A stretch of DNA of 39,068 nt from the IMG/VR virus record IMGVR_UViG_3300032241_002908, positions 1 through 39,068 of that record; one strand, given 5' to 3'. Shown here piece by piece: positions 10,535 through 20,830 of this stretch. Source of the stretch: a virus. Each line of letters starts with the position of its first letter. Within the stretch, counting starts at the first letter, position 1. The translations under genes were made by a program, and so were the position numbers. The notes under the pieces are model-generated. The model made no database searches. It was given only the letters and a program-made list of their open reading frames with translations, and was not told where the DNA came from.

Positions 10535-11560
10535 ATGGATAACGGTATAAAATATTCAACAACAACACCCTCAAATGCTTTAAGAGTAAATAATGTTGCA
10601 ATTGGTGCAAATCAAGTTCAGTATGGGCCAACAAGTACAACAGATTTTTGGACTGCGGTTAATCCAGGTTCAAATTATTGTGTTTATTATTTTGTTGGAA
10701 CATCTGGTGCTCCGAGAATTTATTATGTTGATTCAATACAAATTATAACTTTGGCCAACCAACTTGGTGGCTCTGGGATAACAACATTTAATGGTGCGTT
10801 AAATTATTTTGAAACGAAATCAAATATCCTTGTGACAAATAGAATATATGAAAATATTGTAACAAGCGGACTTGTTTTTGACATTGATTCAGGTTTTATA
10901 CAATCATATCCACAAAATGGTACCTCATGGTGGGATATTTCTGGTGGTAATATTTCTGGTACTTTAACAAATTCACCAACTTGGAACTCTGGTAATGGTG
11001 GTTATTTATCTTTTGATGGTGCTTCAAGTTATATAAATTTTGGTTCAAATAATCTTGGTGTGGATGTTGCCAATAAAACAGCGTGTGCATGGATATATCC
11101 CACATCATCACCAAGTGGTGTTGCTGGAATTATTGATAAAGAATATGATAATACAGGTAGCGGAGGATCATCAGCTTATGGGGGATGGGGTTTTTGGTTA
11201 AACAGTAGTAATAAATTACAGTTCTGGCCTCACGCTAATAAAGATTTAGTTGATACAGGTACAGCATTAACGTTAAATACTTGGAATTATGTTTGTGTAA
11301 CATGGAATACAAGTACCAAAACAGCCATATTTTATCTTAATGGGTCGACTACAACAACCCAATCAAATTCAGCAATTGTTGAACAATCTTCAACTGGTGT
11401 TAGTTTGGGTATTGGTTTGATAAGACTTGGAGGCCCTGGTGGTGGTACATCCAATTTTTTTCCTGGTAGAATAGCAATATGTCAGGTATATAACAAAATA
11501 TTATCATCAACAGAAATAAGTCAAAATTTTAATGCTCAGAGGTCGAGATTTGGTATATAA
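10535..11560 (+). CDS. Tail fibre/adhesin paralogue with one LamG-like domain (341 aa)
   Basis: The N-terminal ~110 residues align clearly with the preceding gene. One LamG-like domain follows (about 115-341), with W-N-Y-V-C-V-T-W-N, I-F-Y-L-N-G-S and a final Y-N-K-I-L-S-S-T-E-I-S-Q-N-F-N-A signature. The spacing of 11 bases to the previous stop suggests one transcript. Duplication of the first gene followed by loss of one LamG unit is the simplest history. The receptor is not predictable from sequence. Confidence 0.8.
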   Translation: MDNGIKYSTTTPSNALRVNNVAIGANQVQYGPTSTTDFWTAVNPGSNYCVYYFVGTSGAPRIYYVDSIQIITLANQLGGSGITTFNGALNYFETKSNILVTNRIYENIVTSGLVFDIDSGFIQSYPQNGTSWWDISGGNISGTLTNSPTWNSGNGGYLSFDGASSYINFGSNNLGVDVANKTACAWIYPTSSPSGVAGIIDKEYDNTGSGGSSAYGGWGFWLNSSNKLQFWPHANKDLVDTGTALTLNTWNYVCVTWNTSTKTAIFYLNGSTTTTQSNSAIVEQSSTGVSLGIGLIRLGGPGGGTSNFFPGRIAICQVYNKILSSTEISQNFNAQRSRFGI

Positions 11561-11566
11561 AGTTAA

Positions 11567-11573
11567 TATTTAT
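11567..11573 (+). promoter_or_regulatory. TATTTAT element before the third adhesin copy
   Basis: TATTTAT ends four bases before the ATG at 11578 of the decayed paralogue. Confidence 0.3.
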
Positions 11574-11577
11574 TAAC

Positions 11578-12242
11578 ATGGGTAATGCAGTAAAATATTC
11601 AGCAACTTCTTTAACAGGTACAATAAAAAAAAGGTAAGGTTTTATTGGGTACCGATACTATTGCTTATGGCTCAACTGCTACTACAGATTATTGGTCAGG
11701 TGTTGATCCAAGTTTGGTATATATCGTTTACTATTTTCCAGGTACTTCTGGAGGGCCTCAAATATATAGTGTTGATGACACAACTATTATAAATTTGGCA
11801 AATCAATTTTACACATGAGTGTTCTTTTACATTTTTTATTAAACCTGATCCAGGGTGGCCTTCCTATTCTGTTATGATTGACCAATCTACTTCTGGTTTA
11901 GATTATAGGATTCAAAGATATAGCAATACATCTAACTTAGAATTTTTTGATGGTACGAATACTATCAATGCTGGCACAATATCAACAAGTTCATGGAATC
12001 ATATTGGTGTTACAATATATTACGGAACATGTACATTATACATAAATGGTACTCAAGTTGCACAGAGTTCCTGTAAAGACCCATTATCATCATCAGGTGG
12101 TTCAACATATATAGGTAGATATAGTGGAAGTGGTGCGCTATATCAAGGTTACATGGGTGCAATACAAATGTATAACAGAGGCTTATCTGCCACAGAAATT
12201 TCACAAAACTTTAATGCTCAAAGAGCTAATTACGGAATTTAA
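11578..12242 (+). pseudogene. Decayed third LamG adhesin paralogue
   Basis: The ATG at 11578 opens a paralogue of the two upstream adhesins (MGNAVKYSATSLTG) that hits a stop straight after an A8 run (11624-11631). With one A fewer, the frame continues GKVLLGTDTIAYGST..., aligned with the paralogues, to about 11816. There the frame is lost again and about 100 codons present in the paralogues are missing. The rest of the LamG domain is open from about 11814 to 12242 (internal ATG at 11874), ending with the shared SQNFNAQRANYGI tail. Two independent lesions argue for a pseudogene or silent cassette; the poly-A lesion alone could be a phase-variable tract. Confidence 0.8.
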
Positions 12243-12278: not shown

Positions 12279-12482
12279 ATGAACAATGTTAATTCAAGTT
12301 ATAAAGCATTTATTCAGGAAAATTATCCACAATATGCTGTGTATGAAAAGGTACCAGCACATGGTAGTGCGATAAATAATGTTATACTTGCGCCATACAA
12401 ATCTGAACAAGAAGCTCAAGAAGCCAGAGAAAAATATGGATATAACAATGATAACTATTACATAGGTAAAATATACTTTTAA
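12279..12482 (+). CDS. Small hypothetical protein, probably from a leaderless mRNA (67 aa)
   Basis: The 67-residue product is Tyr-, Asn- and Glu-rich, with an SEQEAQEAREKYGY segment (about 43-56) that looks like one amphipathic helix between short strands. No family recognised. A host-type promoter directly abuts the start codon. The gene sits between the adhesin pseudogene and the thyA region, two bases before the duplicated thyA 5' fragment, so it may lead the thymidylate synthase operon. Confidence 0.7.
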   Translation: MNNVNSSYKAFIQENYPQYAVYEKVPAHGSAINNVILAPYKSEQEAQEAREKYGYNNDNYYIGKIYF

Positions 12483-12484
12483 TT

Positions 12485-12571
12485 ATGAATAAATTAGATT
12501 TAGATTACCAAACCCTATTAAAAGACATTTTAGAAAATGGTGTGGAGAAAAAAGATAGGAACAGAGTATAA
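12485..12571 (+). pseudogene. Truncated 5' fragment of thyA
   Basis: A 28-codon frame begins MNKLDLDYQ and matches the N-terminus of the intact thyA at 13342 almost residue for residue for about 20 codons, weakening to the RN at codons 26-27, then stops. The nucleotide copies differ at several synonymous sites, so this is an old or separately evolving duplicate, not an assembly artefact. It breaks at the RNGGT/RTGT segment, which carries the dUMP phosphate-contacting Arg in thymidylate synthases. A homing endonuclease gene follows immediately, suggesting the original thyA was cut and invaded here. Confidence 0.85.
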
Positions 12572-12608: not shown

Positions 12609-13340
12609 ATGATTATCTACAAAACAACAAACAAACTAAACGATAAAATCTATATCGGACAAGACAAAAACAATAACCCACATTATTTTGGTAGTGGTAA
12701 AAAACTACAAAAAGCAATAAAAAAGTACGGTAAAGAAAATTTTACAAAGGAAATTTTGGAAGAGTGTGTTGATGAAAGTCATATGAATGAAAGGGAAGTT
12801 TATTGGATATTATTTTACAATAGTCAAGATAGGGAAATTGGGTATAATATAAGTGACGGAAGTAAAGAAGGTGATAGGAAGATTGGTCAAAATATTGCTA
12901 AAAATGGAATTTACAACTATTGGGTTGAGAGATATGGTAAAGAAGAAGCAGATAAGAGACATGAAGAATGGAGATTAAAGATATCTAAATTTCAACAGTA
13001 TAAATTAGAAAATGGGTGGAAACATTCTGATGAAACGAAGGAAAAAATATCACAATCCAGATTAGGTAAAAAATTATCGGAAGAAACCAAAAATAAAATG
13101 AGAAAACCAAAACCAAAAGGGTTCTCTGAAAAATTATCACAAATAAAAAAAGGTATATCAACAGGACCATCAAAAAGAAGAAAAGAAGTTGAACAACTTG
13201 ATTTAAATGGTGATTTTATTAAATCTTGGGAAAGTATAACTAAAGTTGAAAAGGAATTAAAAATATATAATATAAATGCTGTGTGTAAAGGTAAACAAGA
13301 AACTGCTGGTGGTTACAAATGGCAATATAAAATTAAATAA
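12609..13340 (+). CDS. GIY-YIG homing endonuclease with NUMOD-type DNA-binding repeats (243 aa)
   Basis: The N-terminal domain has the GIY-YIG core as I-I-Y-K-T-T-N (2-8) and I-Y-I-G-Q (about 13-17), followed by the usual Y-F-G-S-G-x-x-L-Q-x-A-I-x-K-Y-G segment. The C-terminal half has NUMOD3-like helices (HSDETKEKISQSRLGKKLS, FSEKLSQIKKG) and a final NUMOD1/IENR1-type module with A-G-G-Y-K-W-Q-Y. This is the layout of free-standing phage enzymes that nick a conserved target gene. The start is set at the ATG at 12609, directly before the GIY-YIG strand. The gene ends one base before the intact thyA start, and its target is probably thyA itself (inference). Confidence 0.9.
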   Translation: MIIYKTTNKLNDKIYIGQDKNNNPHYFGSGKKLQKAIKKYGKENFTKEILEECVDESHMNEREVYWILFYNSQDREIGYNISDGSKEGDRKIGQNIAKNGIYNYWVERYGKEEADKRHEEWRLKISKFQQYKLENGWKHSDETKEKISQSRLGKKLSEETKNKMRKPKPKGFSEKLSQIKKGISTGPSKRRKEVEQLDLNGDFIKSWESITKVEKELKIYNINAVCKGKQETAGGYKWQYKIK

Positions 13341-13341
13341 A

Positions 13342-14484
13342 ATGAATAAATTAGACTTAGATTACCAAAATCTTCTAAAAGATATTTTAGAAAATGGTGC
13401 AAAGAAAGAAACAAGAAATGGTGGGACCATATCAGTATTTGGCAGACAAATTCGTCATAAAATGAGTGAAGGGTTTACCTTACTTACAACAAAGAAAATT
13501 CACTTTAAAAGTGTGGTAACCGAACTATTGTGGTTTTTAAAAGGAAGGACTGATCTCAGATCCTTGCTTCAGCATGATTGCCACATTTGGACAGGCGATG
13601 CATATAAAGTATATGACAAGGATTTTGATCGTGAGCACCCAGCCTTCAGTGCGCCATACCCAAAACGCCTCACGCAAAAGGAATTTGAAGAAAAGATCAT
13701 GTCGGATGATGAGTTTAATCGTATGTATGGAGATCTTGGCTTAATTTATGGTGCACAATGGAGAAATTGGGAATATTTAGAAGACTATGATTATCATGAA
13801 GGAGACTCATACCCAGGTACTAAATCTGTTGACCAAATTGCAAACCTTATTAATGACCTTAAAACAAATCCAGATTCAAGAAGATTAATGGTAAGTGCTT
13901 GGAATGTCGGTGAAATTGATTCTATGGTTCTGCCGCCTTGTCATTATGGATTTCAAGTATGGACGAGAGAATTATATTGGGGTGAAAGAGCTCAGACATT
14001 AGGATTTATGGAAGGGACAAAAGAAGAATTAAGAGCATCATATCTACGACACCCAAATAAGGAAAAGTACCCATTTAACGAAGCACACACCTTGGAAGAT
14101 ATGTTAGATATTTTAAATGCACCAAAACGAGCAATCTCACTAATGTGGAATCAACGTAGTGTAGATACATTTTTAGGTTTACCGTTCAACATCGCTTCGT
14201 ACGGTTTGTTACTTGAAATCATTGCTAAAATGGTTAATATGGTTCCTGATGAATTGATTGGAAACTTGGGTGATACTCACTTGTATTTAGATCATTTAGA
14301 TCAGGCAAAAGAACAAATGAGTCGCGAACCGTATTCTTTACCTAAGTTGGTGACAGGCAAAACTCCAGCGTTTTTTGAATCTTTATCAAACCATATATCG
14401 TTATTTGGTCATTTAGATCCTGATGATTTCAGAGTAGAAAATTATCAATCACATCCAGCAATTAAAGCACCATTATCAAATTAA
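13342..14484 (+). CDS. thyA: Thymidylate synthase, dUMP to dTMP (380 aa)
   Basis: The enzyme uses 5,10-methylene-tetrahydrofolate to methylate dUMP and feeds dTMP to phage DNA synthesis. The catalytic Cys200 lies in LPPCHYGFQVW; the N-terminal RNGGT (25-29) is the phosphate-binding segment; DSRRLMVSAWN (about 178-188) and SLMWNQRSVDTFLGLPFNIASY are further signatures. At 380 residues it exceeds the E. coli enzyme (264) because of insertions at about 85-125 and 208-260, seen in some ThyA families. The start is the ATG at 13342, one base after the homing endonuclease stop. Its first ~25 codons are duplicated at 12485. It pairs functionally with the dNMP kinase at 20258. Confidence 0.97.
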   Translation: MNKLDLDYQNLLKDILENGAKKETRNGGTISVFGRQIRHKMSEGFTLLTTKKIHFKSVVTELLWFLKGRTDLRSLLQHDCHIWTGDAYKVYDKDFDREHPAFSAPYPKRLTQKEFEEKIMSDDEFNRMYGDLGLIYGAQWRNWEYLEDYDYHEGDSYPGTKSVDQIANLINDLKTNPDSRRLMVSAWNVGEIDSMVLPPCHYGFQVWTRELYWGERAQTLGFMEGTKEELRASYLRHPNKEKYPFNEAHTLEDMLDILNAPKRAISLMWNQRSVDTFLGLPFNIASYGLLLEIIAKMVNMVPDELIGNLGDTHLYLDHLDQAKEQMSREPYSLPKLVTGKTPAFFESLSNHISLFGHLDPDDFRVENYQSHPAIKAPLSN

Positions 14485-20024: not shown

Positions 20025-20090
20025 ATGAACAAGTTAATAGGAATTATCGGTTTAAAACGATCTGGGGTGACGATTTTTAATATAGTTTAA
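20025..20090 (+). pseudogene. Truncated 5' fragment of the dNMP kinase gene
   Basis: The frame from ATG at 20025 begins MNKLIGIIGLKRSG, matching residues 3-15 of the intact kinase at 20258 (KKLIGCIGLARSG) at about ten of thirteen positions. It then diverges and stops within seven codons. The break falls inside the P-loop. A homing-endonuclease-like remnant follows, so this mirrors the thyA locus at 12485. Confidence 0.75.
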
Positions 20091-20218
20091 TTAAAGAACA
20101 CAGATCAATTGAGGATGCTATGAAATTTGTTAATGGGCGTGGAAGTGGTATTAGAAATGTTTGTAATAATAAACCTAATTATAAAACAGCTTATGGGTAT
20201 ATTTGGAAATTCAAATAA
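20081..20218 (+). pseudogene. C-terminal remnant of a homing endonuclease (NUMOD1/IENR1 module)
   Basis: An open frame of about 45 codons without a proper start encodes SLIKEHRSIEDAMKFVNG, then SGIRNVCNNKPNYKTAYG, and ends YIWKFK. This is the pattern of the NUMOD1/IENR1 DNA-binding module that ends many GIY-YIG and HNH homing endonucleases: a helix with S-I-x-D-A, then I-x-x-V-C-x-x-K, then A-x-G-Y-x-W-K. The nuclease domain is gone. The rest of the 298-base stretch between 19960 and 20257 shows nothing else recognisable. Confidence 0.7.
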
Positions 20219-20257
20219 TTTTACATATTATTGTAATAACTAAAAAATATAGATTAT

Positions 20258-20830
20258 ATGAAAAAAAAATTAATAGGTTGTATAGGATTAGCTCGTTCTG
20301 GCAAAGATACAACTGCCGATTTTCTTTGCAAATATCACAAATACAACAAATATAGTTTTGCTGACCCACTAAAACGTGGTTGTATGGCCATGTTCGGATT
20401 CACCGAAGAACAAGTGTTCGGTGATGCAAAAGATATTATTGATCCTGTATGGGGTTGTACTCCAAGAGATATATTAAAGGTTATGGGAACTGAGGTTTCT
20501 CAATATGATTTACAGAATCATATACCAGCTTTTAAAGAAATAGGTAGATTGATTTGGGTTAAAAGATTTGAACAATGGTATAAATCAAATACAGATAATA
20601 GTGTTGTAATATCTGATGTTAGATTTATACATGAAGCTGATTCCATTGTAAAAATGGGTGGGGAAATATGGAGAGTTGATAGACCAGGAATGAACGTTGG
20701 TGATTTCCACGCATCAGAAAAAGAAATGTTTGATATAAAATATAATCATTTAATAATTAATGATGGTACATTAGATGATTTATATTTTAAGGTTGATAAT
20801 ATTCTTATAAATGATATTGTATCAAAATAA
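20258..20830 (+). CDS. Deoxynucleoside monophosphate kinase, T4 gp1-like (190 aa)
   Basis: The P-loop GLARSGKDT spans residues 10-18. The downstream YSFADPLKRGC, a W-G-C-T-P-R-D-I-L segment (about 68-76), VVISDVRFIHEA and IWRVDRPG are characteristic of the phage dNMP kinase family that phosphorylates dTMP, dGMP and hydroxymethylated or unmodified dCMP in T4. The length (190) is close to T4 gp1 (241) minus insertions. It acts after ThyA (13342) to supply dNTP precursors. A broken copy of its first codons and an endonuclease remnant lie just upstream; the gene ends at a bidirectional terminator. Confidence 0.9.
   Translation: MKKKLIGCIGLARSGKDTTADFLCKYHKYNKYSFADPLKRGCMAMFGFTEEQVFGDAKDIIDPVWGCTPRDILKVMGTEVSQYDLQNHIPAFKEIGRLIWVKRFEQWYKSNTDNSVVISDVRFIHEADSIVKMGGEIWRVDRPGMNVGDFHASEKEMFDIKYNHLIINDGTLDDLYFKVDNILINDIVSK

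Follow-up and report, generated by a model that had tools for sequence, protein, structure and literature searches.

The dNMP kinase gene of the virus record analysed here likely lies behind what is left of a decayed homing element that carried a replacement 5' end of its target. The window (the whole of the 39,068-base IMG/VR virus record IMGVR_UViG_3300032241_002908) contains at this locus, in order, an old head of the kinase gene, a short endonuclease remnant and an intact kinase gene whose own head is of foreign type (Table 1). The layout recurs at thyA in the same window and at several genes in other phages, where it resembles a naturally occurring 'cut and rescue' gene drive.

Table 1. 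Parts of the kinase and thyA loci in the window
Feature	Position	Strand	Length	Remarks
Old kinase head MNKLIGIIGLKRSG, probably the displaced native 5' end of the dNMP kinase gene	20025..20066	+	14 codons	
Short junction	20067..20080	+		stop at its end in the tail frame
Predicted NUMOD1-type DNA-binding tail (C-terminal), decayed remnant of a homing endonuclease	20081..20218	+		
Leader of the replacement kinase head	20219..20257	+		read by eye
Intact dNMP kinase gene	20258..20830	+	190 aa	Pfam DNMK E=2e-21; PHROG dNMP kinase E=1e-47; replacement head = first ~45 nt
Old thyA head	12485..12562	+	26 codons	ends ...VEKKDRN; matches the intact thyA start of sister L077
Intact GIY-YIG homing endonuclease between old and new thyA heads	12609..13340	+		TIGR01453 65.9 bits, cutoff 56.05
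Intact thyA with replacement head MNKLDLDYQNLLKDILENGAKKETRNGGTI	13342..14484	+		tract foreign with respect to L077 extends to near 14368

Two heads at the kinase gene

The kinase likeness of the upstream fragment ends between the G and the K of the Walker A motif (P-loop), and the frame opened by its ATG then reads VTIFNIV before a stop. The initial annotation had described this fragment as a 14-residue copy of the kinase N-terminus broken in the P-loop, followed by a NUMOD1/IENR1-like tail, and both descriptions stand: no better match of the fragment to an unrelated small gene emerged, and the tail does resemble homing endonucleases (see below). The duplicate head is not a chance resemblance, because it lies directly after a terminator and promoter-like region conserved in relatives with an empty site, at the native start position. 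Such empty sites are found in L006 and in many relatives of 60% identity, where the terminator and promoter-like region are followed directly by one kinase start.

Of 22 distinct sequences with such kinase starts, 19 are nearer to the old head than to the new one and none is farther from it (33 nt compared); when L006, L027 and L062, which are out of register, are left aside, the count becomes 16 of 19. L006, itself an empty site, is 98% identical to the downstream leader and the first 45 nt of the gene and then 71-87% identical over most of the gene, and by eye the start of its leader is near-identical to that of the window. The simplest reading of these alignments is that the downstream kinase head was imported and that the upstream fragment would be the native remnant. 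The earlier interpretation is supported, with corrections: of the two heads the upstream ones appear to be native and the downstream ones imported, and rare mirror cases at the 3' end exist too.

By eye, the leader of the new head harbours a candidate Bacteroidota-type promoter (TTTG, 20 nt, then TATTATTG) that extends into the endonuclease tail. The motif has 8 matches in the whole window against 3.9 expected, and as this is weak we claim no host. A DNA search of the kinase-locus stretch against GenBank phages returned 0 matches. A group I intron or an intein at this locus was rejected, an Rfam search of the window having given no match and the downstream gene being complete with its own start.

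The endonuclease tail and its decay

The stretch between the two kinase heads reads YSLIKEHRSIEDAMKFVNGRGSGIRNVCNNKPNYKTAYGYIWKFK followed by a stop, in a frame that differs from that of the upstream ATG; since there is a stop upstream of it and no usable start, it is best seen as a decayed tail. The bare 45-aa tail gave no Pfam hit (14.1 bits for NUMOD1 on its own, below the cutoff of 22.8), yet NUMOD1 is matched at E<=0.01 by 15 of the 18 homologous tails in the alignment. When the query was lengthened by five residues (QFTKT) read in L003, a search of IMG/VR found 51 loci; full homing endonucleases, both GIY-YIG and HNH, with C-termini homologous to the tail come from about 45 other viral loci. 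The full ORFs read at matching loci end in ...KTAYGYIWKYK or a close variant, and A46, Y49 and W51 (the A-Y-W of TAYGYIW) are invariant across the aligned C-termini. Judged by these alignments, the tail is a NUMOD1-type C-terminal DNA-binding repeat.

No catalytic nuclease domain is present at the kinase locus in the window or in L003, both of which keep C-terminal, decayed parts only, and the element as sequenced is a remnant and not an active endonuclease. The same insertion is found in five relatives (L002-L005 and L007, 97% identical in the kinase), where it has decayed differently. L003 and four other records retain an extra upstream endonuclease piece, ANSGCFKKGSTSLNKDKKLSELTKEKIEKQG, which by eye is NUMOD3-like and has no NUMOD3 hit in Pfam; in the L003 group the old kinase head has been lost and the tail carries a frameshift and a 35-nt deletion. 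The difference between the window and this group therefore points to one insertion followed by two paths of decay. A search beside the same kinase head for the full endonuclease that the initial annotation had envisaged in related phages did not find one; it yielded L006, whose site is empty, and the L003 group, in which the element is decayed, and no others.

A younger insertion at thyA

At thyA the window has the gene order that had been likened to that of the kinase, namely old head, endonuclease (a tail at the kinase, intact here) and full gene. Compared with the sister record L003/L077, the window shows 97-98% identity on the left side of 12.5 kb and again beyond about 14.37 kb. In the sister, thyA is native and free of any invasion; in the window, the interval is taken up by the endonuclease, the new head and a thyA body that has diverged. 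Because thyA is native in a sister otherwise so close, the thyA invasion is the younger of the two. The kinase insertion, decayed in both lineages, is accordingly the older, in agreement with the earlier proposal of a second, older invasion. The further proposal that a nucleotide-binding motif was broken both times fails at thyA, where the break falls at the RTGTGT substrate loop and not at a P-loop.

Several details of this region may be recorded. The left junction (12470-12500, compared with L233) lies at a ATTATGAATAAA microhomology, and L077 carries 1.14 kb of small ORFs ahead of thyA that are absent from the window. At 13400-13430 the substrate loop of thyA has TRNGGT where RTGTGT is usual, a difference of one codon in length; the shorter allele recurs in many related phages both with and without an endonuclease. 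Farther upstream (10535-12242), neighbouring ORFs have near-identical C-termini (QNFNAQRSRFGI / QNFNAQRANYGI), and the sister phage differs there by an internal deletion.

The order old head, endonuclease, new head also occurs at the thyA loci L068, L070-72, L074/75, L079/80 and L085, as well as in L091 and L094 and the copies of each. New heads are near-uniform (MNKLDLDYQNLLKDILENGxKKETRNGGT) and old heads varied. Mean pairwise nucleotide identity over thyA codons 1-25 is 0.81 among carriers of the endonuclease and 0.68 among empty loci, against 0.71 and 0.70 over codons 26-50 and 0.71 for both over codons 51-75; the last 40 codons differ slightly (0.56 and 0.49). The contrast between the head and the next 50 codons gives p=0.0004 by label permutation, in which relatedness is ignored. 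Identity of the endonuclease correlates with that of the thyA head (r=0.46, p=0.025) and not with that of the body (r=-0.24, p=0.88). By these measures it is the new thyA head, and not the gene body, that is inherited together with the endonuclease, as a replacement 5' end carried by the endonuclease, the initial annotation's suggestion, would lead one to expect.

The head that travels is also recoded. Old thyA heads with a preserved end stop at KDR/SDR of the RTGTGT allele, and most new heads have ETRNGGT, one codon shorter, so that the DRTGTGT motif has become TRNGGT. An endonuclease adjoins 9 of 23 RNG alleles of thyA versus 2 of 35 RTG alleles, with L074 as an exception in which the endonuclease is present and the RTGTGT head is unchanged. 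The change from RTGTGT to RNGGT fits resistance through altered sequence, without amounting to proof of it. A scar of thyA head replacement with no endonuclease lies at 2789-3001 of L097, its leader and new head being nearly identical to those of L077; a head swap can thus be seen without the endonuclease, through loss or another route.

Recurrence in other genes

Among 120 GIY-YIG endonuclease units from IMG/VR, a geometry-aware scan in which a score of 40 or more counted as a head copy found the head of the downstream gene copied before the endonuclease in 14, compared with 1 of 1173 random pairings. The resulting 12% is no general frequency, the sample having been drawn by a few related endonuclease queries and L160 and L287 being near-duplicates; copies shorter than about 12 residues give protein scores that overlap with noise, and most miss the threshold used. 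Control ORFs other than endonucleases reached the same score in 8 of 411 cases, mostly tandem paralogues in which the copy is the ORF's own start. One duplicate from this control scan, at 229-2500 of L126, consists of tandem cytosine-methyltransferase-like genes with repeated end segments.

The genes whose heads are copied comprise, besides thyA, a 111-aa gene (L185, L367), a PITRxxK gene (L152, L160, L351), a terminase (L170), an 883-codon gene with an STGG head (L206) and a gene of an unnamed family (L266); weaker cases of the same form involve glycosyltransferases (L168, L307) and metallophosphoesterase-type genes (L191, L310). The repeatable mechanism proposed earlier is borne out to the extent that several other gene families show the order of old head, GIY-YIG gene and new head. 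At the endonuclease loci of isolate phages, a head copy was seen in 0 of the 11 examined.

In L079 and L085 an intact old head lies farther upstream, and by eye a decayed remnant adjoins the endonuclease; such stacks are arranged as expected if the events were repeated. The mirror arrangement, scanned for at the 3' end, was found in 3 of 120 units at a score of 36, against 5 of 942 in the null. In one of these three, at 862-2800 of L106, thyA with a new tail is followed by a GIY-YIG endonuclease and then by an old thyA tail fragment, IKHPHIKAPISN, an arrangement that from its sequence is a WHO-like 3'-end replacement in a phage (see below). A possible copy of the C-terminal segment of the upstream gene also follows the endonuclease at 2979-3840 of L222, with a moderate score for this 3' version.

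A proposed mechanism and its alternatives

We propose the following sequence of events for the kinase. A kinase gene sensitive to the endonuclease would be cut within a conserved motif near its N-terminus, in this case the P-loop, and repair of the break would draw on a donor that has, behind its endonuclease, a variant head of this gene. The recipient's own head would be left upstream as a dead fragment, and the imported leader and head would fuse to the recipient's gene body, so that a full-length gene is restored. If the new head has no cut site, the gene would now be resistant; the endonuclease, with no remaining target, could then decay, here down to its DNA-binding tail. The anatomy of the loci, the foreign head, its co-inheritance with the endonuclease (at thyA) and the decay are features of the sequences compared, from which we infer cutting, resistance and homing. 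We lean, with less assurance than for the kinase locus itself, towards the broader view that phages carry widespread homing cassettes (an endonuclease with a resistant replacement 5' end) that, with no intron or intein, may operate in essential genes as home-and-rescue drives of natural origin and repeatedly exchange conserved N-termini in phage enzymes.

The alternative that fares best, although we think it unlikely, is a one-sided repair accident: a free-standing endonuclease lying between two donor genes cuts the recipient, the left end is joined illegitimately, and a passive scar results in which the head copy belongs to no propagating cassette. Such free-standing endonucleases are common in T4-like phages, the foreign thyA tract of the window extends about 1 kb beyond the cut, and L097 has the head scar with no endonuclease, all of which an accident would accommodate. 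Against it, thyA carriers share the head alone and no more of the gene, and the left junction recurs: its leader, GATAGGAAC...AAATAAGATAGTAGATATTTATAATAAA, is common to the window, L084 and, in altered form, L091, under old heads that differ, and persists in decayed form in L079 and L085. A plain tandem duplication of the 5' end, with the endonuclease inserted later into the spare copy, would yield the same gene order, and neutral landing sites are favoured; it is nevertheless very improbable, given that the old and new heads are strongly diverged with the new one foreign in type, that empty-site relatives have a single head and that the thyA break falls at the same codon in separate phages. 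Least credible of all is a function of the upstream fragment as a leader peptide or decoy ORF that regulates the endonuclease or the kinase, its kinase likeness being incidental: the fragment does stand immediately behind the promoter region and ahead of the endonuclease, where translational coupling is possible, but neither its stop nor its length is conserved across loci, it has sequence identity to the native head, and it is lost in L003.

A homing cassette with a resistant head would account for the presence of free-standing homing genes within essential, conserved coding sequences of phages in the absence of self-splicing, the resistant head mending the cut. It would also be a source of chimeric genes that confuse thyA, terminase and kinase phylogenies, and would offer matched pairs of sensitive and resistant targets for endonuclease biochemistry.

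Comparison with known systems

Our literature search, thin on subscription journals, found no prior report of 5'-end replacement in phages. The closest systems described are the mORFs of fungal mitochondria, treated below, and the WHO elements of the yeasts Torulaspora and Lachancea, each integration of which replaces the 3' end of FBA1 (Coughlan et al. 2020, PMC7282813). Both they and the phage element combine a homing endonuclease with a replacement end of the target, the old end being pushed aside to decay, and in both, resistance is proposed from allelic differences and stacks would be built by repeated events (PMC7282813). WHO elements differ in acting at the 3' end, in yeast nuclei, with intein-type (LAGLIDADG-related) endonucleases that have zinc fingers (PMC7282813), whereas the phage element acts at the 5' end of several genes with GIY-YIG/NUMOD endonucleases, its 3' version being rare (L106). 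The mORF hybrids of fungal mitochondria (Allomyces atp6; Glomus atp6, atp9, cox2 and nad3) likewise associate an endonuclease, which for atp9 is GIY-YIG, with a terminal segment of foreign origin that takes the place of the native one, the latter being kept as a diverged duplicate; unlike in the phages, the replacement is C-terminal, mostly linked to LAGLIDADG enzymes and mitochondrial (Beaudet et al. 2013, PMC3630166).

Among phages, the free-standing seg and mob endonucleases of T4-like genomes share several traits with the element described here, in that Seg proteins are GIY-YIG, flanking DNA is co-converted and promoters of downstream genes are embedded in the endonuclease, but they mostly lie between intact genes or split one gene in two (PMC2988022); a duplicated gene head accompanies T4-type enzymes in 0 of the 11 isolate loci checked. 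Finally, engineered home-and-rescue drives also cut an essential gene and supply a recoded rescue copy; these are synthetic CRISPR systems, so that the likeness is one of analogy only and not of homology (PMC7968924), and the phage cassettes would be their natural counterpart.
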